Part shown: in pieces, positions 5,188 to 60,810 of the stretch
Numbering within the stretch: the first letter of the stretch is position 1
Layout of the letters: every line of letters begins with the position of its first letter
Assembly: GCF_032854445.1 (NCBI RefSeq)
Contig: NC_088295.1
Coordinates: 7,504,501 to 7,568,500, forward strand
Direction: 5' to 3'
DNA from: Liolophura sinensis
Lineage: Eukaryota > Mollusca > Polyplacophora > Chitonida > Chitonidae
DNA: 64,000 nucleotides
Program-made: the position numbers and the translations under genes
The notes under the pieces: model-generated
The model's database searches: none
Seen by the model: the letters and a program-made list of their open reading frames with translations, nothing else
What the model was told of the DNA's origin: nothing

Positions 5188-5357
5188 TTTATTTATTTGA
5201 TTGGTGTTTTACGTCGTACTCAAGAATATTTCACTTATACGACGGCTGCCAGCATTATAGTGGGAGGAAACCGGGCAGAGCCCGGGAGAAACCCACGACC
5301 ATCCGCAGGTTTTTTGTCAGACCTTCCCACGTACGGCCGGAGAGGAAGCCAGCATGT
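5188..5357 (-). mobile_element. SINE-like element, family A
   Basis: A longer copy of the same family: tail, 'ttggtgttttacg', 'cacttatacgacg', 'gtgggaggaaaccgggcag', 'acccacgaccatccgcagg' and 'ccttcccacgtacggccgg'. It stops before the tRNA-like head. It lies 60 bp after the copy at 4989-5114. Confidence 0.85.
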
Positions 5358-8047: not shown

Positions 8048-8208
8048 GTACGTGGGAAGATCTGCCAGCAACCTGCAGATGGTCGTAAGTTTCCCTCTCC
8101 CGGCTCTTTCCGGTTTCCTCCCACGATAATGCAGGCTGCAGTTGTATAAGTGAAATATTCTGGAGTACTGCGTAAAACACCAATCAAATAAATAAATAAA
8201 TAAATTGA
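8048..8208 (+). mobile_element. Family A SINE with target-site duplication
   Basis: The element reads from 'gtacgtgggaagatctgccag' through the conserved core to 'caccaatcaaataaataaat'. It is flanked by ATCACATGT at 8039-8047 and 8209-8217, a 9-bp direct repeat. It is truncated at its 5' end and lacks the tRNA head. Confidence 0.8.
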
Positions 8209-8217
8209 ATCACATGT

Positions 8218-9285
8218 TGGAGGAAGACAAGAAGACAACCTCAGCCCTATACGCTTTTTAACATTTTTATGGACTTTCCACCATTATGGCGGGATGTAAT
8301 ACCCTCTGATCCACAAATTTTACCAAAGTCCCAGTTTTAACAAAACACCTCCTTTGTACAGTCTCTTCTCAATCTGTATTTAAATCGAGGAAAGTTCTGG
8401 TATAATTGTAATGTAAGCCCGCAGCCTGAGGTATTCCTCTTTTTTTATAGCATACTCGAATTTAACAACATAAAGTTGGAACTACGAACGATTTGGGTGA
8501 GATAAGAAATATCATCTCGGTGGATAGCCCAAAACAATTAAGGATACACATGTACAGTATATATATGAAAGCGCTCTTCAGTCATCAGGAAATGACCGGT
8601 TATACCGTAATTAACTTGCATGTAAAACTAAATAAATAGCTCTAAAACTAAAACCATTCTATAACCTCATAAACCGAAGCGACGTTGAACACGAATTGGA
8701 TGACTTGAACAAAAAGCTGCTATTAGACAATGGCATTAGAACGTAAAGAAACACTATAATAAAGTATACATCACATTAAAGACTACTGAACACTATCCAG
8801 CAGAATGGTTCCATTTAGCCTACCGGTATATATTTTTTAAAACATCAGACTCAAGAGTGGTTTGTAGTGACCCATATCAGTGACGTCACATCCATGTTTT
8901 TCTCATCGATCTATATGTAAACGCTTTGTAGATGATGAAATTCAGCTGTTTTGTGTTTTAAGTGAGGAAAGCCTGATGTGCCACCACTGGTTCCAATATG
9001 GCCGGAAGAGGCCAACACATAGAATCCAATGTTTCAAATGCATCCAGCTAGGTTGCTAGCATTCTAAAACAAACAAAAAAAAACCAAAACAAACTGAACC
9101 CTTTTATCAACAGCGTTTAATGTTTTTCCAATGGTATATTTCCATGGACATATACTTCACGTTTTCTGTTAATGATTTCTTTCTTTCTGACTGTTAACAA
9201 GCCATAACTGAGATATCAGATAAAGGTTTTAAATTTTAACAAACTGACATTTCAGTCTTCAAACGTAGCCGGTAATAAACTTTTC
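8218..9285. other. Intergenic DNA without recognised genes
   Basis: AT-rich unique sequence; no open frame with splice signals and no clear repeat seen. Confidence 0.45.
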
Positions 9286-9339
9286 CGTAATAATTTTCCG
9301 ACAGCTGACTAATCAGATGGATGTATATAGATGTATATA

Positions 9340-9500
9340 TGCTTGGGGCTTAACGCCGTATGCCATGTGACGATGAGGAGTCATTTGGTGCATGCGTGTA
9401 GATATACTGTGTCTTCATGTGGCAGGACGAGTCTATGCCGCCGAAGCACCGCCGCCACTGAAGTATCATGCCGAAGATTCCAGACATGACAACTCTTCTT
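9340..9500 (-). mobile_element. Family B SINE-like copy (left arm)
   Basis: Contains 'gcttggggcttaacgccgta', 'gacgatgaggagtcattt', 'gtggcaggacgagtc' and 'catgccgaagattccagacatg' of family B. It is part of the left arm of the inverted duplication. The tRNA-like head is missing. Confidence 0.75.
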
Positions 9501-9551: not shown

Positions 9552-9750
9552 TACTTGTTGCTGCCTTGATTGGCGCTCAACACTGAGAGGTTAGAGCAAG
9601 GAAACAGAACTAATTGGCTCGGTGTCAGTATAACATGTCTGAGTGGGGTGTCATGTCTGGCAAGGACTCGCGCTGCTACAAGAAGATACAGTATATGTAC
9701 ACAAACCAAATGGCTTCTCATCGTCATATGACATAGAACATTAAACCCCA
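9552..9750 (+). mobile_element. Family B SINE-like copy (right arm)
   Basis: In plus orientation it shows 'ttgttgctgccttgattggc', 'gctcaacactgagaggttag', 'ggtgtcatgtctggcaagga' and 'catcgtcatatgaca', ending in 'ttaaacccca'. It forms most of the right arm of the inverted duplication. Confidence 0.75.
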
Positions 9751-9827
9751 ATACATATAGACCATTTCATTAGTCCGCTGTCGGAAAATTATTACGCACA
9801 AGTTTTTACAACACCCACCAGAGGAAG

Positions 9828-12800
9828 ATGGCCACGGTGCTGAAAAACGTGTGCCTGTCAAAATTCATTTTGCAAGTTCTTAATTCGTTAAAAGATGCCA
9901 ACCGGGCTTTGGTGCATAATAGACAGACGAGCATTTTTTCGAACAAACGTGTGTTGTCAACGTCAGCTGGTGGTAAGGTCGGGCAGTGCTGTTTGCCGCA
10001 CATACCACGAGAATTGGGCTTCAAATGACCTACAGAATGACATTTACCCGCACTCGGCTCAGCATGAAAGCCGGCCTGGGATCCGGTCTGGACATAGTAG
10101 TTAAACGACAATGAGTATCAACTCAAAACTGATATAGATGGAATGCTATTGATTTACTCTGTTCGAAATTATCTCCTGTTTACAAACCATTCAAACATTG
10201 TATATATACTAAAGTACTAAAGATTTTAAAACTTGTTGCTGCCTCCCTTGGCGCTCAGCACTGAGAGGTTAAAGCAAGGAAACGGGACAGGTTGGCCCGA
10301 TGTCAGTATGATGTGAGAGGGTTAGGTGTCATGACATTAGGTGTCTTTGCCATGAGACTTCAGTGACGTCAGCACTTTGGCGGCATGAACCTGCCCTGCT
10401 GCAACAAGACACACTTACACACATCAAATGACTCCTCGTTGTGATATGTCTTAAAAGTTGTTCAGTACGACGTTAAACCCAAAGTATTCATTCATTCATG
10501 CTAGCTGGTTAAATCCAGCAAATCCGTAACATCTCGTCTTCCCATTGCCACACAATTTTTTAATGGTACAAGAGGGTACAAGAGGATGCTGGTCTTTGGC
10601 TTTATGTTGAACAGCCATGAATATGACATATCCAAATATTCCTCGATCTCAACCAACAGTCAGTGTACCCAGACCAGATAATCCTTGCCCCTAGGTTAGA
10701 TTCATTACTGAAGACCTGCTTAGGTATGCTGGTAAAAGCTAACGAAATTGTTTGCTAGCAGTTTAGACATGGATTCCATGGCTGTTACAGTTTTGATATT
10801 TGGATTGGTCATCACAGCCTTAGTTCTCAAAAAGCACTACATAACTTTCAGGCTGCTGCCAAAAAATTTGCAGAGAATATTTATCAAGTGCCATGTTATA
10901 GCTATCTAGAGTGACCTCACAAAACCTAGGAGCTCTCCCTTACCATCGATATTAAACTATGTGACAAGGAGAAAATACAAACAAAAATGCCTGATGCCCA
11001 ACCAAAGAGTATCAGCTGTGTTCAGTGTTCAGAGGTCTGATGTTTTGTTCAGTTTGGAGCTCAGTCAGGGGAATTTACCGACCATGCCATGCCAACCCTC
11101 TTATTGATAACAGACTCTTTCATGCAGATTTTGGGAAGATTTTTTGTAATAAATCTGACTTTGCTAAGGAAAAATAATGCAAAGTCACAATATTTTTTTT
11201 CAAGCAATGACTCTCCCAAGGTGGTTTTCCTATCAGCTCATCCTGACAAGTTACTGCAGTATCCTGCCCAACATGCACGCATTGTGACACAGGCAGCCGT
11301 TCTCAGTTCCTTGCTTATAAATGTGTGGTCGACAGTTCATCAGTTCAACACTGAAACAATTCACAAAATCTAATTTATTGCATCGATATCTGTCTATCCA
11401 CTATAAGAAACCACACTGATAATCGAGAGCTAATGGATTTTTTGACATGACAACCAATTATCACAGGATGCTTTCAGTGCTAGTGATTGGCTAAATTCTT
11501 AAGGGCTTCTACAACATGGCTAATCGGAATCAGTTGTCCATCAGTGCCGTATCCCCAGTGCTGAACTTCATCCTCTTAGCTTTCAAAACTTCACAGAATT
11601 TGTTACATATTTTTCTGTGATAACTAACATGTATCATTTTTTGTATGTGTACATAGTAGCAGACTTTCTAAACTTACTAAACAATAAAGTCTTGGTTTAT
11701 ACATGTATGCGGCTTTCAAAGGTATTAAGCTCGTAGTGAATTGCAGACCTTACCTACCGTACCTCATGTCGATGAAATAGGTAAACAGTGCATTTATGTT
11801 TGCATCACAGATGTTCTTTCGAGTCGTGTTCAAATTTGAGTAACCAATACCAAATCTATCATGAAATTTGTAATCCTTGGCAGTGACATTCAGTTGCTAG
11901 GTGAAATTTTTGCTGACTTGTATTATTTTCAGTACACGCAATTGATCCAACCAGATACATGTATGTTGTCAGTAAACAAGCAACAATCTGTAGACCGGTG
12001 GGTTGGGCCAGGACCATGAAGAGATTGATTATAAGCAGGGACTGTGTCATTTTGTGTTAACACAGTGATCATCATTCTCACAAATATGCTTCTTTCCTAG
12101 GACAAGATGTGAAATCTGAGACAAATCAAAGACAAGAAGATCCACTGCCACTGTTCTGCAGTGAACGAGTGCAATCTCTTCTGGGTCGTATCACCGGGTT
12201 TGATGTCACTAAAATAAATCGTGTACGTCCAGCAGCCTCAGTGCCACCCGAGTACCATCTGCTGACAGAAGAACAACTGAAACAGGTGAAAGTCATGCTG
12301 GATTCACATGGACTAGAAAACTAGATAACTAGATATATCAGTTTTAACAAATATGTAGAATGTGTAACTACAGTGCTGTAAGAAGTGTTAACTACTGTGA
12401 CCCTACATCAGCACTATAAGATGAGTAAACTGCTGTGACTACACCAGCACTGTCATATTTGTTAACTTCTGTGACTCTACACCAGCACTGTCGTATGTGT
12501 TAACTTCTGTGACTCTACACCAGCACTGTCGTATGTGTTAACTTCTGTGACTCTACACCAGCACTGTCATATGTGTTAACTTCTGTGACTCTACACCAGC
12601 ACTGTAAGATGTGTAAACTGCTGTGACTCTACGCCAGCACTGTAAGATGTGTAAATGACTGTGAATGTACATCTGTACTGTAGGCAAAGCCTGGTTTCCT
12701 CCCACTATCATGCTGGTCACATTGTTACATGTACATGTATATATTTGTTAATAACTCTTCATTAATAGGTGAAATCTTCTGTTTAATGTCAGAAACAAGA

Positions 12801-15800
12801 ATTGGCTGAAGCTGAAGCTCGTGATCGCCTGCAGATGCCGCCCTACATGAAGGCTCGTGAACCAATCACAGAGGTGCTGAGTAGGGATAAACAAATACAG
12901 GGGGTGAATCAGCACAAGTATGTCTTTACAGACATCACCTACGCCATGCTGGACAGGGTCAGTTCATTTATAGTGCTCTCCTACCTGCCAAGCCCAACAT
13001 TTCTTGTTCTCTCTCGCCTGATCAGCCAGGTGTCCACATTTTTAGTTTTTCCCACCTGTTCAGCCAGGGGTCATCATTTCAGCCAGGGGTCGTCAGGGGT
13101 GATCTCCCCCTTTCCGAACCAAGAATTATCATTTCTAGTTTTCTCCCACCTGCTAGCTCAGGGATCAATATTTCTAGTTCTCTCCAACTTGGTTGGCCAG
13201 AGATCAACATTTATAGTTCTCTCTCACCTGCCCAGCTAGGGATTATCATTTCCATTTTCCCACCTGTTCAGCCAGGGATCAACATTTCTAGTTCTCTCCC
13301 ACCTGCACACCCAGGGGTTAACTTTTCTCTGTGTTCTCTCCCACCTGCTTAGCCAGGGGTTAACAGTTCTAGTTCTCTCCCACCTGCCCAGGCAGGGATA
13401 ATCATTTCTAGTTTTCTCCAACCTGCTCAACCAGGGATCAACATTTCTAATTCTCTCCTACTTCATTAACCACTTCATTTGCCACTTCATTTACCAAGGG
13501 TCCACATTTCTAGTTCTCTCTCGCCTACTCAGTTAGAGGTCAATATTTCTAGTTCTCTTCCATCTGCTCGGTCAGGAGTCAACATTTCTAGTTCTCTCCC
13601 GCCTACTCAGGGAGGGGTCAACGTTTCTAGCTATCTTCTGCCTGCTCAGCCAGGAGTCAACATTTCTAGTTCCCTACCATCTGATCAGCCAGGAGTCAAC
13701 ATTTCTAGTTCCCTACCATCTGATCAGCCAGGAGTCAACATTTCTAGTTCCCTACCATTTGATCAGCCTGGAGTCAACATTTCTAGTTCCCTACCATCTG
13801 ATCAGCCGGGAATCAAAATTTCTAGTTCCCTACCATCTGATCACCCGGGATTCAATATTTCTAGTTCCCTACCATCTGATCAGCCGGGAGTCAACATTTT
13901 TAGTTCTCTCTTATCTGCTCAGTCAGGAGTTGAGATTTCTAGTTCACTTTCCCTCGTGCTCAGACAAGCCTCAACATTTCTAGTTCCCTCCTGCCTGCTC
14001 AACCAGGGGTCAACATGTATAGTTCTAGTGTTACATGTGGTTGAAAAATCATGCTTGTTATGTGGGTGACAAATCATGTGTGTTATGTGGTTGATAAATC
14101 ATGAGTGTTGTGTGGTTGACAAATCCTGCATGTTGTGTGGTGGACAAATCATGAGTGTTGTATGGTTGACAAATCATGTGTGTTGTGTGGTTGACAAATC
14201 CTGCATGTTGCATGGTTGACAAATCCTGCTTGCAGTGTGGTTGACAAATCCTGCTTGCTATGTGGTTGACAAATCATGCATGTTGTATGGTTGACAAATC
14301 CTGCTTGCTGTGTGGTTGACAAATCCTGCTTGCTGTGTGGTTGACAAATCGTGCATGTTGTGTGGTGGACAAATCATGAGTGTTGTATGGTTGACAAATC
14401 ATGTGTGTTGTGTGGTTGACAAATCCTGCATGTTGCATGGTTGACAAATCCTGCTTGCTGTGTGGTTGACAAATCCTGCTTGCTATGTGGTTGACAAATC
14501 ATGCATGTTGTATGGTTGACAAATCCTGCTTGCTGTGTGGTTGACAAATCTTGTGTTGTGTGGTTGAAAATCATGTGTGTTATGTGGTTGACAAATTATG
14601 TATGTTGTGTGGTTGACAAATCATGGGTGTTGTGCGGTTGTCAAATCATGTGTGTTGTGTGGTTGATAAATCATGTTTATTGTGTGGTTGACAAATTATG
14701 CATGTTATGTGGTGGACAAATCATGCATGTTGTGTGGTTAACAAATCATAAGTGTTGTGTGGTTGACAAATCCTGCGTGTTGCATGGTTGACAAATCCTG
14801 CTTGCTGTGTGGTTGACAAATCCTGCTTTGCTGCGTGGTTGACAAATCATGCATGTTGTGTGGTGGACAAATCATGAGTGTTGTGTGGTTGACAAATCAT
14901 GCATGTTGTATGGTGGACAAATCCTGCTTGCTGTGTGGTTGACAAATCTTGTGTTTGGTTGAAAAATCATGTGTGTTATGTGGTTGACAAATCATGCATG
15001 TTGTTTGGTTGACAAATCATGTGTGTTGTGTGGTTGTCAAATCATGTGTGTTGTGTGGTTGATAAATCATGTGTATTGTGTGGTTGACAAATTATGCATG
15101 TTATGTGGTGGACAAATCATGCATGTTGTGTGGTGGACAAATCATGAGTGTTGTGTGTGGTTGACAAATCCTGTGTGTTGCATGGTTTACAAATCCTGCT
15201 TGCTGTGTGGTTGACAAATCCTGCTTGCTGTGTGGTTGACAAATCATGCATGTTGTGTGGTGGACAAATCATGAGTGTTGTGTGGTTGACAAATCACGTG
15301 TTTTGTATGGTTGACAAATGCTGCTTGCTGTGTGGTTGACAAACCTTGTGTTGGATGGTTGAAAAATCATGTGTGTTGTGCGGTTAAGAAATCATGTGTG
15401 GTGTGGTTGACACATCATCTGTGTTGTGTGGTTAACAAATGATCTGTGTTATGCGGTTGACCAGTTGTACACACATTACAACAGTAACACATATAGATGT
15501 TTTATTAAAGAGCAAAGGGAGTCACTTACTTGACCGAGGTGGTAAAGGTTCCAACGTTTCGCAGTGACCCAGGAGCCTCTTACCAGTGCAGCCGCTCATG
15601 CTCAGCTCATTCTAGCTTCCTCTCCGGTCATATGTGGGAAGGTCTGCCAGCAGCCTGCGAGTGGTTGAGGGTTTCCCTCGGGCTTTGCCCAGTTTCCTCC
15701 CGCCTGCGGCCTCGTCCAAAAACAATGGACACTTCCCTTTTAACAGCAGTTGTCACAGCGTATATGCAGTGAATGAAGCCATTATTTCTTAATTAAATAA

Positions 15801-18800
15801 AAATGAATTAAAGTGCAAAAGACTGCTGGTTATACAACAGAGTTGTCCCATGGGTTCAGTGTGGTTGTATGTGTGTTTCAGGAACGACAGGTTGTGGTCC
15901 GAGAGCCGGATGGTACATTGCGGAGAGCAACGTGGGAAGAGAGAGACAAGGTCAACCAAATATACAACCCTCAGCCAGGGCGCAAACTCTTTGTCCCCAA
16001 AATGTTTTCACCTGAAAACTTGGAGGTACAATGTTTTTAGATAATGTTCAGTAACTGTGAAAATAAAGATAATAATAATAATAATAGTATTAGATGCTGG
16101 TCAGGAGGTGATTATTTGTTTAATACTGTTCTCAGGAGTTTTTCACATATATGGTGATGGTCATATTTATGTGTGGAGTCAGTCTTTGTAAGCAATGCAG
16201 TGGCCAGATTCTCAGCATGAAGGATTATACCAGGCATGGATTGTCTCTGTCTCTGGTGTTTTTTAGCGAGATGAGGAAGTCTGAGGACGCTTTATGCATT
16301 GTGGCCTACTTGCTTTCAGTAGACACTTTCATGATAAGACTGAAACAGTGTTAAATGAAGTACATGTAAGGTCAGCCACATGCAAACAAACAGAACGCCA
16401 ATCACACAAATATAGATTGGTGCATGTATTATGTCTTATTGGCATGTTTATTCCCCAGAAATTGTTAGCACAGAGAAAATATGAGTATGTTTTGGACCGT
16501 GCTTGTGTACAGTTTGAGCCAGACAATGTGGAGTACATCAGAGTGAGTCATTTTTTTTGTTATCACCTGTAGATTTCACTGTCAATCAAATAGTAATATT
16601 GTTTACTAAGAATCTAATGTATGTGTAACCTTTTAGCCCAGATAACCTGTGTCCATATATAATGAGTTGTGTCATACATGTACACAAACTTTAATATTGA
16701 CTATGTTGCCACTCCCCTTTGGGTTTAGCAATGGGGATAGGCCAAGTAAATGTACTGATTAGCTCAATGTAAGTGTATTGTGACTGGGCGGGATATCATG
16801 TTCAGTTGTACATTGTAGCTACATGGATATGCCATGTCATTTCTAAACTAAGATTGCACTTTGTCCCTTTGTTATGTAATGGAAGAATTCTTATGTCGTT
16901 CAGATAATATTTAATAGGTAAGCTGAAGAAAAAACCTATTTTTCAGTGGCCTTCACTGAGTCAAAGGCACATTTGGCATTTCCCCTAGCTTCGGAGAAGA
17001 AACCAAAAATTTAGTTTATAGGCCCACTTTTGTTTTTGTTTTGTTTTTGATCTGAAGAAGTAACGAACTAATAATCTTAAATAAGAGTTACCATTGTGGT
17101 TCTGTTGTCATCTCCGTGATTATTGGCAACAATAATAATTGCGAGTGAAAATTGAAAGAAGAAGTACATGTAGTTGACTCTTGCCAAATGGCCACAAAAT
17201 CAAGTGCAGACAATCCAACATGAACCTCCTGTCCATTAAAATTGGGTGAACTTGTTTTGTAACATGTTAAGTTATTGTTCATTTCACTCAGAATAAGTTT
17301 CCCAATAAATGAATTAGCATGATTTTTTCAAATTGCGGGGATTGGGGAGGAATGTCTTTTTTGACCTGTTAAACGAATTCAAGTATAGGCTATAGGAAAG
17401 TTTAGGAACATGTTCTTAAGTATGGTGTAAAGCTGCCATGAATTTAATCATTTGTTTGATATTCCTGATAATGTGTGCTTATATTCATCAGGTGACTCAT
17501 AGAACTTATGAGGTGGTGAACAGCCGGCATGATTTTGATGAACTTCGCTCAACTCGGCATTTTGGTCCAATGGCGTTTTACTTGGTGTGGCACAAGAACA
17601 TTGACCAGCTTCTTGTGGACATGCTCAAGAGAGACAAGTGAGTCTTCTTCTTTGTCAGAAATCTGGGTCCGGTTGTTCAGAAGTGTATTAAAAGTTAAGC
17701 CAGTCTTAAATCTTAATACCAGTCTCGACCTAATAAAATTAATGGCACTTAGTACAAACTACAGTTAATACCAGGATTAACTGCTAATACACTTTGGAAC
17801 AACTGAGCACAGAACACTAAACCCACCGGCTGCATGCATAGGTGGTCTAGAAACGAGTGGTGCAGTGAGTAAGAATGAACGAATAGGGGCACAGTGGATC
17901 ATGATGAAGAGATAGCAGTAGGATGGTTGGTGATGTGGCGATAGGAGTACAGAAGTAGTGATGAAAGGATAGTGGTGGGTACTAGTGAGAGAGCAATGAA
18001 GCACCCCTGTGTCGAAGCAGTAGAGTACATGTATTTGTTGTGATTCATCTTTTCTGTCTTATCTTTGGTGTAAAGAGATTCACTCTCACTAGCAGTTGTT
18101 GTGATCAGTACTTGACAAAAGTTGTGTTATTTTCCAGACTTGTTGATGGTGCTGACCTAGTCCAGCTGTTCCATGCAGTGCACCCAGACTGCGAGTCTGC
18201 CCAGGAGTCCACAGGGCTCACAGATTCCTTACAACTCATTGAGGTAAGAAACCAGGGAAGGCAGTGCTGATAGAAACTGGGTACAGGTATAATATGACAT
18301 CAGTAATAATGAGTTTCTTTAGTTAATATACACTTTGTATTCGACCGGAAGTAACTTATTGAATTTACATGTATCACCCAATCCTGCATGTACTTAAAAG
18401 TACATGGGACACAGCTTTTTGCACATATTTATCTCCCTTTAATGTGTAAATGTACTAGAGTATCCACCACTAACTCTTGTTAACTCTGAGCCCATGTGAT
18501 TGAATGTAGATATATTAAACTGGAGATAGACAGATTACTTACCCCGGTATGAGTTATTGTGTTGGAAAACGTGTAGTTTCAACGTTATTGTCAGCGAGGT
18601 GTTGGAGAGTGAGGTGCAGTGGTGGTCTTGTCCGTTTATGCACTACAGATAGAAGGATTAAATGGTCGTGCAAGCTGAAAATAAGAGACATGTCCCACCT
18701 AAGCAAGTTGTGACCCCCTCCCTCGTCTTGCATCGTTCACTTCTGTTACTCTACTTTGCTAAAGAACTATCTCATTGCTTCACAAGCACAGCTTTAAAGA

Positions 18801-23312: not shown

Positions 23313-23322
23313 TTTGCACGTA

Positions 23323-23668
23323 TGCTTGGGGTTTAACGTCTTGCTTAACAATTTCCAATCATATGACGACGATGAGTCATTAGATGTGTGTACATATATT
23401 GTGTCTTCTTGTGTCACGGTGAGTTCATGCCACCTAAGTGCTGCCGCCAAGGAAGCATCATGCTGAAGACACCAGACATGACCACCCTACCACATTATAC
23501 TGACATCGGACCAAGGCCGTTATATTTCCTTGCTCTAACCTCTCAATGCTGAGCGCCCAAGCGAGGCAGCAGCAAGTACCTTTTTATAAGTCTTTGGTAT
23601 GACCCGACCCGGTTTGATCCCGGGACCTCCCGACTTTGAGGCGGACGCCCTAACCATTGGGCCAACTG
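23323..23668 (-). mobile_element. Near full-length family B SINE with tRNA-like head
   Basis: This is the most complete family B copy. Read on the minus strand it begins with a tRNA-like head: A-box-like TGGCCCAATGG, then 'gcgtccgcctcaaagtcg', then B-box-like GGGATCAAACC. The body follows ('gcctcgcttgggcgctcag', 'ggtgtcttcagcatgatgc') and ends at 'gacgttaaaccccaagca'. It therefore defines family B as tRNA-derived and Pol III type. Confidence 0.85.
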
Positions 23669-23990: not shown

Positions 23991-24357
23991 CAAACAGAAC
24001 CGTTCAGTAACCATTCTGCTCACTACAGTATAATGTATCGTATCCGGACCCGTCCTCCTCTCCCCATGACTTGCATATCGGAGGGTTTTCTGTTACGACC
24101 AACGACAGAAGGGTATGATTTTATTCTTGGGAAATGGTTGTGAATTCCTTGCATAAAAGTGAATACATTTGACAGAGAGCAGGTTTTGAAGTTTGATGTG
24201 TAAAACATAAGCTGTGTAAGCCTAAATCTGCGTAAGTCCATATACTGGTTCACATGCAGTAAGCAACGTCAAAGTTCTGCATTGCGATGTAAAGACAACC
24301 ATGCATACAAAAATATAAACATCCGTTGGAGATTTATATGTAGGCCCTATGTGTGTA

Positions 24358-24688
24358 TGCTTGCGTTTTAAAGCAGTACGTAACAATTTTTCAGTCATAT
24401 GCTGACGAGGAGTCATAATGTGTGTATACACATACTGTATCTTCTTGTGGCAGGCAAATCCATGCCACCAAAATGCTGTTGCCACTGAAGACAACAAGAC
24501 AACAGACATGACATCCCACCCAGTCACATGATACTGACAATGGACAAACCAGTCATGTTTCCTTGCTCTAACATCTCAGGGTTGAGCACCTAGCGAGGCA
24601 GCAACATGTACCATTTTGTAAATCTTTTTTACGACCTGACACAGGTTTGATCCAAGGTCTCCCAACTTTGAGGCGGACGCTCGAAGCA
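24358..24688 (-). mobile_element. Family B SINE, diverged, near full length
   Basis: Contains 'caatttttcagtcatatgc', 'gacgaggagtcataatgtg', 'cttcttgtggcaggcaaatc', 'tttccttgctctaacatctc' and 'ctttgaggcggacgctc'. It has many substitutions and an older appearance than the copies with intact target-site duplications. Confidence 0.8.
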
Positions 24689-29062: not shown

Positions 29063-29313
29063 TTGGTTAGCGCGCTAGCGCAGTGTAATGACCCAGTAGC
29101 CTCTCTCAAATGTGGGCCACTGTGAATTCAAGTCCAGCTCATGCTGGCTTCTTCTCCTGCCATATGTGGGAAGGTCTGCCAGCAACCTGTTGATGGTTGT
29201 GGGTTTCCCTTGGGCTCTGCCCGGTTTCTACCCACCATAATTGCTGGCCGCCGTCGTATAAGTGAAATATTCTTGAGTACGGCATAAAACACCAATCAAA
29301 TAAATAAATAAAA
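29063..29313 (+). mobile_element. Family A SINE with near-perfect target-site duplication
   Basis: From the tRNA-like head ('ggttagcgcgctagcgcagt', 'gaattcaagtccagctcat') through the body to '(aaat)n'. It is flanked by TCATGAGCAATTA (29050-29062) and TCATGGGCAATTA (29314-29326), 12 of 13 matching. Confidence 0.85.
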
Positions 29314-31142: not shown

Positions 31143-32985
31143 AAAGTCTGCACATTGATGTGTTGATTAGTTTGGGAAGATATCTTAGTTTGCATAGGAA
31201 GTCTACCATTGTCCTGTCAACTGGTTTTGTTTGGGAAGAGAGTAGCTTGTCCTGTTAGTTTATATAGGATTTATTTATTTATTTGATTGGTGTTTTACGC
31301 CGTACTCAAGAATATTTCACTTATACGACGGCGGCCAGCATTATGGTGGGAGGAAACCGGGCAAAGCCCGGGGGAAACCCACAACAATCCGCAGGTTGCG
31401 GCAGACATTCCCACTTACGGCCGGAGAGGAACCCAGCATGTGCTGGACTTAAACTCACAGCGACCGCATTGGTGAGAGGCTTCTGGGAGTTTGTATAGGA
31501 AGGTCCGCACATTGTCCTTTTGGTTTGTATAGAAAGTCTGCACATTGTCCTGTTGGTCTGTTTGGGAAGAGGGCAGCTTGTCCTGTTAGTTAGTATAGAA
31601 TGTCTGCACATTGTCCTGTTGGTTTGTTTGGAAAAGAGCGGCTTGTACTGTCATTTAGTATAGGAAGTCTGCACATTATCCTGTTGGTTTGTTGGGAAGA
31701 GGGCAGCTTGTCCTGTTGGTTTGTTTGGGAAGAGGGCAGCTTGTCCTGTTAGTTTGTGCAGGAAGTGTGCACATTGTCCTGTTGGTTTGTTTGGGAAGAG
31801 GGCAGCTTGTCCTGTTAGTTTGTGCAGGAAGTGTGCACATTGTCCTGTTGGTTTGTTGGGAAGAGGGCAGCTTGTCCTGTTAGTTACTATAGAAAGTCTG
31901 CACATTGTGCTGTTTGTTTGTATAGGAAGTCTGCACATTGTCCTGTTGGTTTGGTTGGGAAGAGGGCAGCTTGTCCTGTTAGTTACTATAGAAAGTCTGC
32001 ACATTGTGCTGTTGGTTTGTTTGGGAAGAGGGCAGCTTGCCCTGTTGGTTTGTGTAGGAAGTGTGCTCATTGTGCTGTTGTTTAGTATAGGATGTCTGCC
32101 ACATTGTCCTGTTGGTTTGTTTGGGAAGAAGGCAGCTTGTCCTGTTAGTTTGTTCAGGAAGTGTGCACATTGTCCTGTTGTTTAGTATAGGAAGTCTGCA
32201 CACTATCCTGTTGGTTTGTTTGGGAAGAGGGCAGCTTGTCCTGTTAGTTACTATAGAAAGTCTGCACATTGTCCTGTTGGTTTGTTTGGGAAGAGGGCAG
32301 CTTGTCCTGTTGGTTTGTGTAGGAAGTGTGCACATTGTCCTGTTGTTTTGGTATAGAAAGTCTGCACATTGTCCTGTTGGTCTGTTTGAGAAGAAGGGCA
32401 ACTTGTCCTGTTGGTTAGTATAGAATGTCTGCACATTATCCTGTTGGTTTGTTTGGGAAGAGGGCAGTTTGTCCTGTTAGTTAGTGTAGGAAGTGTGCAC
32501 ATTGTGCTGTTGGTTTGTATAGGAAGTCTGCACATTGTCCTGTGAGTTAGTGTAGGAAATGTCCACATTGTCAGCTTGTACAGTTAGTTTGCATAGGAAG
32601 TCTGCCCATTGTCCTGTCAACTGGTTTTGTTTGGGAAGAGAGTAGCTTGTCCTGTTAGTTTGTGCAGGAAGTGTGCACATTGTCCTGTTGGTTTGTTTGG
32701 GAAGAGGGCAGCTTGTCCTGTTGGTTTGTTTGGGAAGAGGGCAGCTTTGTCCTGTTGGTTTGTTTGGGAAGAGGGCAGCTTGTCCTATTAGTTTGTTTAG
32801 GAAGTGTACACATTGTCCTGTTGGTTTCTTTTGGAAGAAAGCAGCTTTGTTCTGTTAATTAGTATAGGAAGTCTGCACATTGTCCTGTTGGTTTGTTTGG
32901 GAATAGGGCAGCTTGTCCTGTTGGTTACTATGGGAAGCCTGCATATTGTCCTATTAGTTTGTATGGAAGTCTTCAGCTTGTACAA
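31143..32985. repeat. 33-bp minisatellite, second block
   Basis: About 50 copies of the 33-bp unit. The predominant variants are GTTTGTTTGGGAAGAGGGCA-GCTTGTCCTGTTG and the CTGCACATTG form, often alternating as a 66-bp pair. It is interrupted by a family A SINE at 31270-31487. Confidence 0.92.
31270..31487 (-). mobile_element. Family A SINE inserted in the 33-bp array
   Basis: The copy runs from (TTTA)n to 'cgaccgcattggtgagagg', nearly reaching the head. The flanks are AGTTTATATAGGA (31257-31269) and AGTTTGTATAGGA (31488-31500). These could be a target-site duplication, but this word is also part of the 33-bp unit. Confidence 0.85.
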
Positions 32986-36989: not shown

Positions 36990-37145
36990 TATTTATTTAT
37001 TTATTTATTTGATTAATGTTTTACACCATACTCAAGAAAATTTCACTTATATGACGGCAGCCACCGTTATGGTGGGAGGAAACCAGGCAGAGCCGGGGGA
37101 ACCCAAGACAGTCTGTTGCTGGCAGACCTTCCCACATATGGCCAT
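36990..37145 (-). mobile_element. Family A SINE with 10-bp target-site duplication
   Basis: (TTTA)n tail, 'gattaatgttttacacca', 'ttatggtgggaggaaacc' and 'gcagaccttcccacatatgg'. Perfect direct repeats GGATAACATT flank it at 36980-36989 and 37146-37155. It is inserted at the edge of the 92-bp array. Confidence 0.87.
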
Positions 37146-48300: not shown

Positions 48301-51300
48301 CCTGCAACCTTGGATAGGGAATTTTTACAAGCTTTGGCAACAGTCCATGGTCAACTGTGCTTCTATATTTGGTATCTCGTCATGGTCTTACATGGTCGTA
48401 CAAGTTTGTTGGTGATCACCTTTTTTTCCACCAATATGGCAGTTGATATAAACTCACTCTGCTGATGAAAATTGGTTTGGCGATACATGGGTGTGTCACC
48501 CAGATCCCAGGAGCAGCATTAGAGAGGTGTTTAATTTTGTACTTGTATCTGATCTATAGAAACATGTAGTAACAGACTGATCTGTTTTCTTAGTTACCAT
48601 GGCACCCTTACTCCAAGTGGGCCGTCCTCACCATTGTACGAGGCAGACACACAAAGCACCCTATCGGCCTCCAATTGCTGGACAACAGCAAGTGGTAATA
48701 CAACGGGGCGTAGCCGTAGCAGCGTAGACTCCACCTACTCCTGGGGTGATGACGTAAGTACACCATGTTACATGTACATGTAATCATTTGATCATTGATG
48801 TCTGGAAATGGTTTGGGTAGTGAGTATTCAGTGTACATGTACATTTTGTCTCTTTCATCATGAACTACTTTGCATAATTTGCAGGAATTTGATCGTCATG
48901 CATCAAAGACAGTGCGCAATCTGTTTGAGGAGATTGACTCCATGTTGTATGAGGAGCGGAGAGATGGCCCCGAAAACAGCTACAGGGAATGCAGGGAATG
49001 GGTTTCACAATTTCCTCATCTACGGTCAGTTGGAACATCTGAAGTAGTTCTTCAGCCTTTCACATGTTTGCTAAATGTTTATATTCAAGTCCCTTCTGAG
49101 AACATTGTTCTGTGTAGACTGATAAAATACACTCCAGCTCATGCTGGCTTCCTCTCTGGCCGTATGTGGGAAGGTCTGGCAGATGGTTGTGGGTTTCCCC
49201 CGGGCTCTGCCCGGTTTCCTCCTTCCATAATGTTGTCCGCCGTATTATAAGTGAAATATTCTTGAGTACGACATAAAACACCAATCAAAAAACAAAAAAA
49301 GTACACTGATAGAAGCCACGATTTTGATACATGTATCTTTGCATGTAATCTACATGAAAGATATTGGCTATCATGTACTTTTGTACTGTTCTTGGTTTTG
49401 GTGGACTTTTACAGTCATTGTGTATGCATGTATACATGTATTTATAATAGTCAGTATGGTTTGTGCAGTAGCCTTTTCAGACTTGGTCTAATGTCTCTGT
49501 CAGGGAATCCATTTGGGAAAACTTTGGTATAGAACTATTACAGCAGGGGTTGAAATTTTAAATATCAAAATTTTTTTTAAGGGCAAACCTTCAAAATTTG
49601 TTCAATGCATTGCCAGATAACTACAGTGTACCATCAGTGCCTTGGTATATGTGTTAATGTATATATCTGGTATTACAGATAGTAGTATATCTGTCTCTGT
49701 GTATGTGTGGCAAGATAGTTGTATCGGTATCAGCCTTTCTGCTTGGCAGGATTCTGCATGGGATCAGTGTCAGTTGATCTACATGTGCTTGACAGACTTC
49801 TTGTATAACCATGTTTCTGCTTGGATGGGTACTGGCATCTGTATCAGTGTACATGTATTTCTTTGGCAGAAACATGGGAACTGTGTCAGTGTAAATTGTT
49901 TGTATGCTTGGCAGGATTCTTGGATCATTGTCTGTGGATCTGCTTGACAAAAATTTTGGATCAGTGTAACTGCTTGGCAGGATTCTGGCAACTGTGTAAC
50001 TGCTTGGCAGGATTCTGGGATCAGTGTTTTTGGTGGGCAGGATTCTGGGATCTATGTCATTGGATCTGCTTGGCAAAGATTCTGTATTGGTATCTGTTTC
50101 TGTGTACATATACATGAATCTGTTTGATAGGCATCTGGTATATATGTCATTATATATGTCAGTTCTGTTGATGTGATTCTGAGATCTGTACAATAAAGTA
50201 TGTCATGCCGTATATCCTTTTAACAGGGTTCTTGGGGTGCAGGGAGTGGAACCTAAAGAGGCAGGGTATATGGCTATTCCCAGAGACTCTCCTCGATATG
50301 GCTGCAGCAGTGTTCTCCAAGATGTCACGGAGCAGGACATCTTCTCCACAACTCAGGATCTGCAGGGGTGAGTTCAGCATTCCCATTAGCTCACAGCAAC
50401 TGGCCACACATGAAACACTGAAACTGCATGGACCATGCACTACAGATTACATGTACCATGGATTGCAAATTACATGTGCGTATACCATGCACCACAAACA
50501 ACATGTTCCAAATAATTTATGCACTGCAGACTATATGTACTATACTCCACAGACTGCATGTCCCATGCACTGCAGATTAGTTAGTCTTGGACAGGTAGCC
50601 TGAGACCTTGTACATGTACTGCAAAAGATTCCTTTTTACACTCACTGTAGCTCTCCAAAAAACAGCAGCAATTCATATTCACCACAGAACAAGCATTCCT
50701 GAACACCTGTCTATGTTAAAGATATTCAACCTGTTCCTTTTCTTAACACTACATTTGCCATAGTGATTGATGAAGCTCAGAACGAGTAGCTGTAATGTCA
50801 CCCAAGCTCAGATCCAGTGGTTGCATTGCACGTCGTATAATGTTACTGAATCTCAAAATGATTTGTTGTACGGTGCGCTGTGTTACTGAAGTTCAGAATT
50901 ACTTGTAGTCAGTCTACTGTACCTGTAATGTCACCCAAGCTCAGAATCAGTGGTTGCATTGTGTCTGTAATATGGTTGTACTGTAGTATGTGTTGCTGTT
51001 CAGAATGACTTTTAAGAGCTGATGTCATGATGCCATGTATGCAGATTACAAGTGTCAGGCCGCGCGGTGTCAGCTAAGCCCTGCCCTGTGGACAGCAAAA
51101 CTCACCGACCTCCAGCAGAGCTCAGTTACCTGGAGGAGGAGGTCTTTGCCCAGGAGGGAGAGTATGAGGAAATTCTGGCAGTGGATCATCGGGACATGTG
51201 AGTACTGCTTGTGGTCATCATGTAATACAGTCAAGATTAGCACTCTGCTCAGGCACCTGATCTGAAGAAAGTGAAAATCTGTACTATCTTGGCACTATTT

Positions 51301-54300
51301 CTTGCACTAGTCACTTTGCATCTGGAAAGTGTTTGGGCTTCCAAACTGTTGGTCGCCTAAATTAAACAAGCTGTATTTAAAGTAATAAGTAAATTAAACA
51401 AAAATATGATGGTTTACTAATACAAAGTGAAGTTTTCATCTACGTTTCTTTCATTCACAGACTTAAAAGTTTTTAGAAAACATTTATTTGAGTTGAATTT
51501 TAAAAATGTCTTTGTGCATATGCTGTCACATTGTCATCATTAAAGTTTGGAATAAATGTTCAATGCTCTTCTAGATATGGCCTTGATCATACATGTAAAT
51601 CACTGAAGGTGGAAATTTTCTTCAAGTGTATAAGTGTCTGTAAGGTTAAGTTATATCATCACAAAATCATGGTCAGATTATATCAGCCAGTTTTGGGGAA
51701 ATAGACGAATAGACAAAACTCTGTCCAATCCAGCAAGTTGACAATGCTTTTTACATGTATATCTAGTATGGCACTAGGTACTGAATGAACACAGGCCACA
51801 GATTTTTGATTGTCTTACACCATTAACTGTAGATGTGTGTTTCATTTGATTAGTGTTAAAGCACATACTCAAGAACTTTTTACTTCTACAAGAAACCAAA
51901 AGGTTTTTGGGGTGTGGGGAACTGGGGGCTTGAGAACCCCATGGAGCCAGCCATTTAGCTGTCTGAGTAATGAGTCTTCCTATATCAAGTGTATATTATA
52001 GGTTGTTTGGTAATGGATTTGTGTAATGAATTTTTCCCCCTCAGGTTTGAAGATGCATTAGAGCAGAAGAGAAACATTATCCCTCGCAGGCGGCGGCTAG
52101 GCTTTCCTCCTGTCACCCCTAACGCTTGCCTTCGAGATACTGTGTCCTGTGCTGTATTCGACTACATCTGGATAGAGGTACATCAGATATTAAATTGAGC
52201 TTATGGAAGATATTGTTGTCGATCATCCAATCATTGGTAACCAAGAAAACCATTGGTGATTACATGTATAGGAAATAATCCAGGGCTTATGAAGAATTTG
52301 TAAGACTATCAGTGGTAACGGTCTCAGAATCAAGGTTGAAATTTCCCTACTTAATAAACTTAAAAGTTGCTATACAGGCGTGCCATAAGCAAATGAGTTG
52401 TCATTCCCTTAAAAACTACAAGCTTACAGCTTTAAAATATTGTGTAGTAAACTTCTGTAAAGTTCTGTGTTATATAGTATTAAAATGTTTAGTTTGTTGT
52501 AAAGGTAAAGCATTAGCCCCAGCTAGTACTGACTGCTACATGTATATTTTCGCAGTTCCTGGAATGGGCCGGCAAATTGATCAAACATTACTCATCAGTT
52601 CTATTAGGTAAGCATATGACATCAAGATGTTTTTCCTTTATATGGTTATATCTGGCTGAACATGTATCTATATCTAGAGAAAAGAATGATTTGGGATAGT
52701 ATAAGTATTGTTCAAATATTCTTGTATAGCTGAGCTATGTATATTGTACCATGCTTTAATACTGTCTACAGAAAGTTAGAGCAGTTTGTCAGCACTGCAG
52801 TTGTTTTTTGATGTTTAGAACTTTTTGGAATGTCTGTTAATTCACGTTTTAACATAAACAGATATAATGCAGAATTGGGTTATTGTGTGGTAATGGAATT
52901 TTGTTTTTACTCATTTTGTATCTGAATTGACAATGTCTCGTCAAATTTCAGAAAACACTGTGAACCCCACCTTGCCAAATCCACTGGATGCCATATTGTC
53001 AAAGGTAAGTCTTTTGGTGACTCTAATGGTTCTTTCTGCTAAAGAAAATATTATATTTCCCTACTCTGGTCGTAGCCTGTCTTTGTCTCTCTCTGGTTCT
53101 TGCAATACATCTTCATTGTATTTGTCGAGGAGTATTTTTACGCAAAAATCTTTTGTGTTACAGACTAATAGACTGTCAGCCGGCACTTCAGGTCTGGAAT
53201 CTCGTGGGCCATCACTGGGAGATGTGCTCACTGTGTCCAGGAAAGAACTCCAGCTCAGGGAAAAGTCCAACCTACAGTAAGTTGCTGTGGATGTTTCTGG
53301 ACAAGCATTCAGTAAGATACGGTGGGGTTTGTCATGTGGTTGTTTAAGGTTTGTAAGTGGTATGTATTCACACTGGGTTATTGAGTTGTTTTTCTCTCAG
53401 TCACTAAGACATTTGGGGTGTTGGTTCAGTCTCAGACAGGAATAATTGGAGATTGCCCAACTTGGCTTGTTTACAGGACTTTGGTGATAAATGCTCATTT
53501 GTCGGTAAAGGAAGTCTTACGTGAAGTTTGTTTTTGATTACTTGCCTTCCACCTGACCGCTCTTTTGGGCGGTGAAAAACTATACAAAGTCCTAACCTCA
53601 GTTCTCAAGTCCTAAGATGTATATGGTGGAGTTTACTGTTCAGTTTGCAGCTGGTCATCCCTTGCATCTGGTCATCTCAGATATATCAACAGGTATGTGT
53701 TCGGTACGGAGTGTAAATATGGCCTTCCCATGATTGTATCATTACAGGGACATAGCTGAGGCACAGTCTCCACTACCTGCCCTGGAGAACCATCCAAACC
53801 ACACAGGTGTGATGGCTGTGAGACGCCAGCGCCCAGGCAGCGTCCGCTTACTCTCTGCCACCCTGCGACGCCCTGTGGGCCCCAGGACAGGTCCCGGGGT
53901 CCGCCTTACTCCACTCCATGTCACTTCTCACCTTTCAGAGAGCAGATCACGCACACCTAGTGTTGTAAGTCCAAGTTGAAATACCTCTCTATTGGAATTA
54001 TTTAGTTATGAATATGTTCACAATATATATGAGGGAGCGTATTTATTATGTCAAACTTCAAAAAAGTCTTAAATGAACCTATAGAGGATGAGCCAATCAG
54101 AAATCAGGCAAAATGTATCACCTGAAATATACTAAACTTTAGGTGAAATACAAAACTTCTAGCCATGATACCTGTATCATGAATAAATGACTATAGGTGA
54201 AAATAGTCCACCTTTGCAGAGTAGTGTTGCAGAAAGAGCCAATATCGTCTTGCCCTATGTACATGTAAATCTTCACGAGTTAAGACCTACAAAATGGCAA

Positions 54301-57300
54301 TCTGTGGTGGATGAGCATCATTAAAGGAATTTGGCTAGAAGTTTTGTATTTCACCTAAAGTTTAGTATATTTCAGGTGATACATTTTGCCTGATTTCTGA
54401 TTGGCTCATCCTCTATAGGTTCATTTAAGACTTTTTTGAAGTTTGATTACAATCTTATCAGAAAAACTTACATGTAAGTGTTGGATCAAAAGTGTCACTT
54501 TAAGGTCTTTATACCCTTCTGATAATGCATTTTTGCATACAAAATTTTAGGTGAAATATAGTAACTGTTTGAGGGATATTCAGTTAATGTCTTTATAAAA
54601 GTAATTGCTGTAGTGCCATAATGCTACATGTACATACAGTTACACGTAGTGGATCATGTTGCCATTCTCTTTCCAGGAGGATACTCGCAGTCTGCAGATG
54701 CAGAACGAGGTTCTAGTTGGACACCGGCTGCCAATTGGCTCTGACCGTCTCCAGTCCCCACCCTCTGGCCTACGGAACAGTGCCCTTCCACCACTTGACA
54801 TGATTGTGCGCTATAATAACATGGTTTGTGTGTGCCCTGATTGAGTGGCCTCCCTTCTCTCCTCTCTAACTGTCACCAAAGCCTGCCAAATAACAAAACC
54901 CATCATGTGTCTTGTTTGCGCTACCTGCCACCAGGTGGCACTAGTGCTTTTTGGCACCTGGTGGTTTGTGGGGGAAACAGGCCATGGAGTGATGGAGAAA
55001 ATTCTGCTACCACTGACATGTTGTTTGTTTGGGGCAAATTTGTGTTGTTCTTTACTTGAGTGTGTTAACATCAAAATCTTGTTTTTTCTCTCTTGCACGT
55101 CATTGGTATATATCAGCTGAACATTGATTTAAACGGTTGAATTGTTAAACATAGTTAGATAATGTATGAGCAGGACCAGGTTGTTCAAAACTGATTTGAG
55201 ACTTAATGCCAGGTTTAACTTTAAGCCAATTCTTCAATTTTGTACTTAGCCTAAAAAAATTGTGTAACATTATAATAAATATGAACTTAGAATGCTGCTC
55301 TTATACTTTCACTTTGGTGAATTGGCTGCTGAGTTTGGCCAGAAATTTAAATATAAATTGTGACTTAATAGCAGTATTAATTAATACATTTTGGAATAAC
55401 TGAGCCCAGCATGTTTATCATCTTTGAGAATTTGTCTTGATAAAATCTTCTCTAAATATTCTTCCTGAGATTGTTGATGATCATATGCATACGTGTAGTG
55501 ACAACTAGTGCTTATAAATTCTCAAAATATATATGTTCTTATAATGTAATACAGGTTTGTTACATTGTAATACAAGTTTGTTACAGTGTTATACAGAGGT
55601 CTCTGAAGCCTCCCTGCTCTGACCTGTTTCAGAAACGTGCTCACAACCGTGCCAGCAGTGCACTGGTCACAGACAAGGAATCCTCCCTGAGGCTGTCCAA
55701 CAGGGAAAAGTACCTGCAAACTCAGGAGAGCTTTGCAGTGGCGCGTCCCAGCACTACGCATGCCTTCCACAGGGTCAGTACATGTAGCAACCCATTGTTG
55801 ACTGCAGTGTTACATATATATTTTGTAGGCTAAGATGAAGTACTAAAAATAATTTTCCTTGAACATGATTGTGAGTATAGTGTGGAATGCAGGATACAAA
55901 ACAGTTTACTAAAAACACACTGTTTAATAACATTATATTGATTGTGGTGCTCTTTGAAGGGTAAAAGTGGTGTACAAATAACGCAGTGTGTCGACGTTGT
56001 CCTACAACACGATTTCCTTGGTGAGGGTGGCATTATATTTATAAAATTAGTTGTGTACCAGTGACACAGTTTCTCGTTTAATGTGATACTGTATGTGATG
56101 TTACAGTCCGATACCCCGGGAAGCTATGGGAATGTAGCAAGTCGACGGTCCTCCACACCTCTGGGCTTTTACACTATGACAGCCAGGCAGGGACACTCAT
56201 TAGGTAAGTCTCCAGTAGTAGTGAGGGACAATCAAGTGAACAGCTGCGGGACAGGCTTACTAATGCGTCTTATGGTGGACCTGATTTACATGCACATTCC
56301 ACTAGTGGGATCAGTTCACTCATACAAGAATCAGTTGACATAACTTAAGTTTGTGCATATTTTTCTTGCAGGTGCACCAAACTACCTGGGTGTGACGGGC
56401 AGTGGGATTTCGCAGCAGCCCGCTGACCTCAACCACCTCACTCCAGAAAACCCTACTGACTCAGAAGGGTATCAAGAAGTCATCCACAGCCAGTGGAGTG
56501 AGTTGTCTCCCTTTGTTATCAACGCTTTGCTGGCTTGTTTTCATAGCAGCTTTGCTTTTCTGGCTTCCTCAGGTTGCTTTGTACCCCTCACACAGTTTTG
56601 TATATTATTGTGGATAGATCTGTGTATCCTTATGTGCAAGTCATGTAGATTTGCTGTGCATACATCCATCCACCCTCTCCTAAAAAGTTTTTAGTATCTT
56701 TATCAAGTTGGGTGAAACTCAAATCACTGGGTGAGTAGAACCTAGTGAAAATGAATAGTGTAGAACAATTACTGATCTATGACATATTTGTCATATCATA
56801 GTACTTACATCTATTTAGCTTATGTACTCTTATTACTGTTGTTAAACATCTCAGATTTGGTAAAACTTCATGCATGAATCTAGTGTTGGGCCCATTCCTA
56901 CATTATAACTACATTTTTTTGATTGGGGAACTATTGTGACATTCATTTCAATTTCTATCAAGTATGTCTAACATGTATGGATATTAGGTACTTTTTGTTT
57001 GGCACTTTTTCATTTCTTTACATGAATGTAGTTACTGTGTCATCGATACATTCCATCAATGCACTGCTACATCTCTTGACATCAAGGCATATATATGTAC
57101 TGTGTGTAGACCCCCCAAAGCTAGCCCTGCCATTTCATAGGTACCCTGCTACATCTCTTGACATGAAGGCAAATAGTGTGTGTATAGGCCCCTGAGAGTC
57201 AGCTCTCCCATTCCATCGATACACTGCTACATCTCTTGACATGAAGGTAATTACTGTATGTAGGCCCCACAGAGTTAGCCCTCCCATTCCATCAATACAC

Positions 57301-59889: not shown

Positions 59890-60810
59890 AGAATAGACAA
59901 CAGAGCTCCTATCTTATGTCTAGAGTGTGAACGTCATACCAATACATGTCTGCCATTGCTCTACAATTATAGAGTTGTAAAGGCTGAAGGTCCTGATCAG
60001 CTAGTCTGCCTTGGCTCTTTAACCATTGAGCTTTTATCTGATGTCTAAAGTGTGAAGGTCATATCATTCCAGTCTACCATGGTCCTTCAGCCATAGAGCT
60101 CTTATCTGATGTCTACAGTGTGAAAAACTGCCATGGCTCTTCAACCACAGAGCTGTTATCTGACACCTACAGTGTGAAAGACTGCCATGGCTCTTCAACC
60201 ACAGAACTGTTATCTGACTCCTACAGTATGAAAGACTGCCATGGCTCTTCAACCACAGAGCTGTTATCTGACGCCTACAGTATGAAAGACTGCCATGGCT
60301 CTTCAGCTGTAGAGCTGTTATTTGACGCCTACAGTGTGAAAGACTGCCATGGCTCTTCAGCCAGAGAGCTCTTATCTGATGTCTACAGTGTGAAAGACTG
60401 CCATGACTCTTCAACAACAGAGCTGTTATCTGTTGTCTACAGTATGAAAGACTGCCATGGCTTTTCAGCTGTAGAGCTCATATCTGACGTCTACAGTATG
60501 AAAGACTGCCATGGCTCTTTAACCATAGAGCTGTTATCTGACACCCACAGGGTGAAAGACTGCCATGGCTCTTCAACCAGAGAGCTCTTATCTGATATCT
60601 ACAGTGTGAAAGACTGCCATGGCTGTTCAACCACAGAGCTGTTATCTGACGCCTACATTGTGAAAAACTGCCATGGCTCTTCAACCACAGAGCTGTTATT
60701 TGACACCTGCAGTGTGAAAGACTGCCATGGCTCTTCAGCCATAAAGTTCTTATCTGATGTCTTCATTGAAAGACTGCCATGGATCTTCAACCACAGAGGT
60801 CTTGAATGAT
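59890..60810. repeat. 54-bp minisatellite
   Basis: About 15 copies of a 54-bp (18-codon) unit, AAAGACTGCCATGGCTCTTC-AACCACAGAGCTGTTATCTGA-CGCCTACAGTGTG, degenerating at both ends. It stays open in one plus frame for 229 codons (60120-60809, 18-residue repeats with CHGSSTTELLSD) and in minus frames as well. The earliest copies carry stops (TAA near 60046), there is no start context or splice chain, and both strands are open; I treat it as non-coding. Confidence 0.9.

Follow-up and report, generated by a model that had tools for sequence, protein, structure and literature searches.

A young, perfect 115-bp inverted repeat in a probable FAM149-like intron of Liolophura sinensis, consistent with replication template switching

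MITEs typically consist of long TIRs around a short middle, and a target-site duplication (TSD) is the usual signature of the conventional ones. Spy transposons, of the PHIS superfamily, are described as making no TSD, preferring AAATTT and carrying TIRs of 5–691 bp, and 4 of them are recorded in 4 mollusc species (PMC11304231; PMC4482050). Template-switch mutations create in one event a perfect reverse-complement repeat with a spacer near its source, a subset starting at a pre-existing quasi-palindrome, as set out in the four-point model (Monttinen and Loytynoja 2022, PMC8794818) and in a great-ape set of 1503 gold-standard switches, where the copied tract has a median length of 12 nt and reaches 128 nt at most (PMC7954356). 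Perfect RNA stems have been argued to arise by template switching in one event (PMC8794818). At the level of RNA, long dsRNA that undergoes A-to-I editing is said to come conventionally from nearby inverted repeats pairing within transcripts (PMC9989829), and Drosophila hpRNA loci are described as forming a long RNA hairpin.

We analysed a 64-kb stretch of the chiton Liolophura sinensis (64,000 nucleotides of contig NC_088295.1, hereafter the window), which contains a perfect inverted repeat at 54051–54446 (Table 1). With a probability of roughly 60%, we read it as a young, local inverted duplication produced by replication template switching; on that reading it is a fresh example of a known mutation type. 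A sequence-only reading had reported a perfect 115-bp inverted repeat with arms identical base for base, and both points hold: 115 of 115 bases are complementary (100%), with 0 differences, and together with the spacer the arms form a unit of 396 bp. The arms are maximal, the bases immediately outside and immediately inside them being unpaired. Similarity ends abruptly at the arm termini; the left flank shows no similarity to the inverted right flank beyond the arms (289/300 shuffles equal or better), and the spacer has no significant self-complementarity when set against its own inverse (75/300). Perfect inverted pairs that reach 12 nt and lie at most 1.5 kb apart number 30 in the window, and the arm pair tops them. 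Because the runner-up is 20 nt long, a chance origin of the arm pair is excluded.

Table 1. Coordinates of the inverted repeat, its surroundings and the features used in the junction analysis (positions in the window).
Feature	Position	Strand	Description
Inferred host intron	53965–54676	+	712 bp, GT...AG; from splice dinucleotides and an open frame in both neighbouring exons
Left flank able to pair with spacer 54178–54188 after removal of arm 1	54041–54050		Cross-junction stem score 15
Arm 1	54051–54165	+	115 nt; putative inserted inverted copy (direction from junction test, weak)
Small hairpin at inner end of arm 1	54164–54181		8-bp stem, 2-nt loop; first two bases belong to arm 1
Spacer (hairpin loop)	54166–54331		166 nt, between the two arms
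Arm 2	54332–54446	−	115 nt, exact reverse complement of arm 1; putative native copy
Diverged partial copy of an arm 1 segment	54537–54558	+	22 nt, 20/22, in arm 1 orientation, outside the repeat

The repeat is young, not necessarily very recent: 0 differences in 115 positions bound the arm-to-arm divergence at <2.6% (95%). A "very recent origin" had been proposed from the letters; youth stands, and "very" is too strong for a result that sets only this bound. Two further options had been raised for the identity of the arms. Gene conversion between the arms of an old repeat is disfavoured: it would be expected to leave decayed margins, and none are seen around the perfect stretch. Selection for the duplex is not required, since a young repeat evolving neutrally could equally show a divergence below 2.6%.

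No TSD flanks the arms. For lengths of 1 to 20 bp the two flanks are never identical, the best match being 5/8, which bears out the earlier remark that none is visible. A conventional TSD was looked for, and rejected, both directly at the arm ends and over offsets from −30 to +59. Outside the arms, TSD-like matches are of 2 bp only, at offsets −9, −13 and −14; within the arm, where a TSD that is itself palindromic would be concealed, one candidate matches at 6/7 positions and ends at base 20. Short or palindromic matches further in, from offset 20, were rejected because they would need an unexplained symmetry beyond them. Helitrons have an A before their 5′ TC end and CTRR at their 3′ end. The present ends fail this description: a G precedes TC, and the 3′ end is TTGA, 1 of 4 bases off CTRR.

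BLAST of the unit against the window returned the unit itself, its own two arms, the 22-nt partial copy and matches of chance length (for the arm, at most 21 nt, E 0.26 or weaker). We thus found no repeat family containing the arms within the 64 kb, where the repeat is single-copy. An exact 29-mer of the arm had 0 matches in IMG/VR and 0 in GTDB genomes, which are weak tests because these collections cover viruses, bacteria and archaea. The 22-nt copy was equalled by 11 of 3000 random comparisons of the same geometry. An arm segment that resembles the intron outside the repeat may be how native intron sequence behaves; the orientation of the 22-nt copy would, if anything, make arm 1 the native one. 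Tandem arrays and the surroundings of the repeat itself were left out of the random controls for this copy and for the palindrome and junction tests.

In the template-switch reading, the polymerase would have stalled during replication, probably at the short quasi-palindrome ATTTATTATG/TGATACCTGTATCATGAATAAAT, moved about 280 bases downstream onto the complementary strand, read 115 bases there in reverse and then gone back, so that arm 1 would be arm 2 copied in inverted orientation. The features of the locus are those described for such mutations, namely a perfect reverse-complement copy close to its source, abrupt ends and the absence of a TSD, and a stall at the putative quasi-palindrome would place the event in the subset that starts at one. 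Unlike typical great-ape switches, the present one would have copied 115 nt, close to the longest of that set; this is long, but not unprecedented (PMC7954356).

The question of which arm is new was approached by deleting one arm, the whole repeat or a Spy-type unit in silico, joining the flanks and comparing the junction with random junctions of the window. Our first test used the overall palindrome score and the folding energy of the joined flanks over ±30 and ±40. The palindrome score of the junction left by deleting arm 1 was equalled by 55 of 2000 random junctions at ±30 and by 101 at ±40, while 755 and 898, respectively, were as stable. Removal of arm 2 and removal of the whole repeat each gave 869/2000 at ±30 and 43/2000 at ±40, so that at ±40 both outscore the junction left by arm 1; we read the 43/2000 as due to a palindrome at 54466–54479 that does not span the junction. 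The Spy-type junction gave 352/2000 at ±30 and 63/2000 at ±40, and none of these three junctions stood out in energy (1504 to 1966 of 2000 random junctions as stable).

This first test was indecisive. Having seen it, we devised a cross-junction test that scores only stems spanning the junction. Once arm 1 is taken out, CATAATAAAT, which is complementary to the left flank, aligns with the spacer segment CATGAATAAAT with one gap, and a stem as good occurs at 26 of 5000 random junctions and at 6 of 1064 AT-rich ones. No cross-junction stem forms when arm 2 or the whole repeat is removed (a fraction of 0.7284 of 5000 as good in each case), and the mirrored geometry with arm 1 removed is at chance level (a fraction of 0.66 of 5000 as good). 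Once all six comparisons (three models in two geometries) are counted, 26/5000 becomes about 0.03. The clue is only suggestive, because the test was designed after an indecisive broader one and the junction is not unusually stable. The small hairpin straddling the inner boundary of arm 1 overlaps the cross-junction stem, so the two observations are not independent. Under either assumption about which arm is new, one end shows 1 nt of microhomology and the other 0. Given the six comparisons, this overlap, the scant microhomology and the orientation of the 22-nt copy, we offer the direction, arm 1 as a copy of arm 2, as a suggestion. Nevertheless, template switching, an alternative that the sequence-only reading had put forward in a sound list of origins, fits best: there is no TSD, the ends are abrupt, the window holds one copy and a cross-junction stem appears when arm 1 is taken away.

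The main rival is a TSD-less, non-autonomous TIR element, a MITE such as Spy, inserted between AAA and TTT. The locus can be drawn in this way: the arm starts as TC-AAA-CTTC, an AAA and a TTT occupy symmetrical positions, each 2 bases inside the end of its arm, and an element of about 386 bp with 110-bp TIRs would then lie in TCAAA^TTTGA, so that an allele lacking the insertion would have TCAAATTTGA in place of the arms and spacer. The likeness to Spy as described in the cited accounts consists in the TIRs, the lack of a TSD, the drawable AAA/TTT flanks and the occurrence in molluscs. Unlike Spy as described there, however, the present inverted repeat runs 2 bases beyond the supposed target, which requires a chance match, and an AAA close to an AT-rich end is commonplace. 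The 64 kb hold no further copy, no stop-to-stop ORF of at least 70 aa overlaps the 396-bp unit, and the resemblance of an arm segment to the flanking intron (11/3000) is awkward for an incoming element. We therefore hold a Spy-type insertion to be unlikely. The earlier statement that a standard MITE is "not obvious" is right in that the usual TSD signature is missing, but it left a TSD-less type such as Spy unnamed.

It is quite improbable that the repeat is a conventional MITE or foldback element that made a TSD and later lost it through mutation or deletion. Long inverted arms around a short middle are shared with foldback elements and are typical of MITEs; unlike these, however, the present repeat is single in the window and lacks a TSD, and such a loss would have had to strike flanks (best match 5/8) next to arms that are still identical over 115 bases. 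Nor is there a perfect palindromic TSD of 2–12 bp with its end at any of the arm's first 20 bases. Inverted chimeras are known to arise from amplification and from palindromic reads, which makes an assembly or library artefact conceivable, but we consider it very improbable: the spacer and both flanks differ in sequence, the splice dinucleotides are intact with open exons on either side of the intron, and a chimera would presumably seldom switch twice and then return. A TSD-less mobile element of a lineage undescribed in the host group, with arms that make efficient intronic dsRNA tapping ADAR or Dicer, would combine origin and use; we regard this as improbable too.

Whatever the origin, computed folding indicates that a transcript of the unit can pair its arms into a duplex of 115 bp closed by a loop of 166 nt. 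For the 396 nt of RNA the computed energy is −230.6 kcal/mol; 100 shuffled versions averaged −82.2 (sd 5.7), and not one of them (0/100) came as low. This is in keeping with the long pre-mRNA hairpin expected by the sequence-only reading. By default we suppose that the hairpin is probably removed by splicing along with the intron and is otherwise neutral. Judged by its predicted structure, it should be a competent candidate ADAR substrate wherever ADAR is present, and processing by ADAR or Dicer is plausible. It is tempting to go further and see a functional dsRNA locus, in which selection or conversion keeps the duplex as an ADAR substrate or as a source of hpRNA siRNAs. This reading concerns use and is compatible with any of the origins above. 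The predicted fold, far below the shuffles, speaks for it, as does the report of four ADAR homologs in a survey of 14 lophotrochozoan genomes (PMC6651903). On the other side, the 64-kb window contains no matching target elsewhere and no Rfam match (0 for 4227 families at gathering scores), and youth already accounts for the perfection of the arms, so we think such a function highly doubtful. The long RNA hairpin is common to this locus and the Drosophila hpRNA loci; unlike those loci, as far as the accounts of them drawn on here go, the present hairpin is intronic, has no target in the window and is known from DNA sequence alone. If confirmed, the repeat would show one replication error giving rise to a long perfect RNA hairpin in a gene, caught before mutation has blurred it. 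Editing substrates and small-RNA loci could arise from hairpins of this kind, and the case would be an illustration rather than a new principle.

Several smaller features of the arms and their surroundings were also noted. A CCAAT word in each arm had been pointed out. CCAAT itself is ordinary in the window (58 on the forward and 82 on the reverse strand, with about 57 expected per strand), whereas the longer word GCCAATCAG occurs there only in the two arms. As to the small hairpin at 54164–54181, the window has 53 stems of 7 bp, and 1.4% of 20000 random positions are equally near one; the figure becomes about 5% once all four arm ends are counted. An imperfect palindrome within the arm was equalled by 0/300 shuffles but by 311/3000 real window comparisons, and a similarity between arm and spacer by 6/300 shuffles but by 112/3000 real comparisons; both were dropped. 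Three further resemblances involve the right flank: its inverse against the spacer (3/300 shuffles as good) and the flank against its own inverse (2/300), both resting on a common ACATGTA palindrome core, and the flank against the spacer in direct orientation (8/300).

The repeat had been placed in a FAM149 intron. The putative 712-bp GT...AG intron around it lies between two open exons: the one on its 5′ side (53748–53964) closes on a complete codon with ...RTPSV, and the one that starts at 54677 begins with EDTRSL. Upstream, the stretch 48864–49250 matches the Pfam family DUF3719 (28.0 bits, cut-off 23). DUF3719 is known as the FAM149 domain, and on this match the host gene is probably FAM149-like. 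Pfam returned no family for the exon stretch adjoining the repeat (53734–53979), and because this exon is without a match, that it belongs to the same gene as the DUF3719 stretch is something we infer. The Pfam scan covered 10 stretches chosen from the 190 listed ORFs, with 3 matches above the family cut-off, 1 below it (DUF5732, E 0.083) and 6 stretches without a match. Elsewhere in the window, the stretches 12061–12324 and 15807–16040 match mitochondrial ribosomal protein S22.

A second, older inverted pair lies upstream of an ATG at ~9829, which we took by eye for the putative start of the gene for mitochondrial ribosomal protein S22 (MRPS22). Its arms are 74% alike within the window and include a 20-nt perfect stretch. 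The pair seems to take in part of a dispersed repeat together with neighbouring sequence and could therefore represent an older inverted duplication.

Two dispersed repeats are present in the window. Among copies of the first, the longer inverted pairs are 77–88% alike, and the element has what we take to be the look of a conserved mollusc SINE. Two inverted pairs formed by the second are 71–75% alike.

Positions of repeated features in the window
Feature	Positions	Unit or length	Copies
First dispersed repeat	5188-5356, 8048-8201, 29092-29312, 31270-31487, 36996-37142, 49133-49300	~150-220 bp	
Second dispersed repeat	10231-10490, 23322-23577, 24354-24609	~260 bp	
Second inverted pair	9272-9439 / 9659-9809		
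Palindrome	scattered over 11700-63247		
Tandem repeat	60077-60798	54 bp	13.4
Open frames across tandem repeat	60042-60809		
Large minisatellite	14036-15461	25 bp	57
Large minisatellite	31489-32970	33 bp	44

The palindrome TACATGTA occurs 54 times, against 2.6 expected from dinucleotides, and is absent from the window before 11700. The 54-bp tandem repeat contains 0% indels; one frame runs across it without a stop for 255 aa, reading as a repeat of 18 residues, and the opposite strand is likewise open (137 and 94 aa). Two large minisatellites were also found, and that of 25-bp units is flanked by the two MRPS22-matching stretches.
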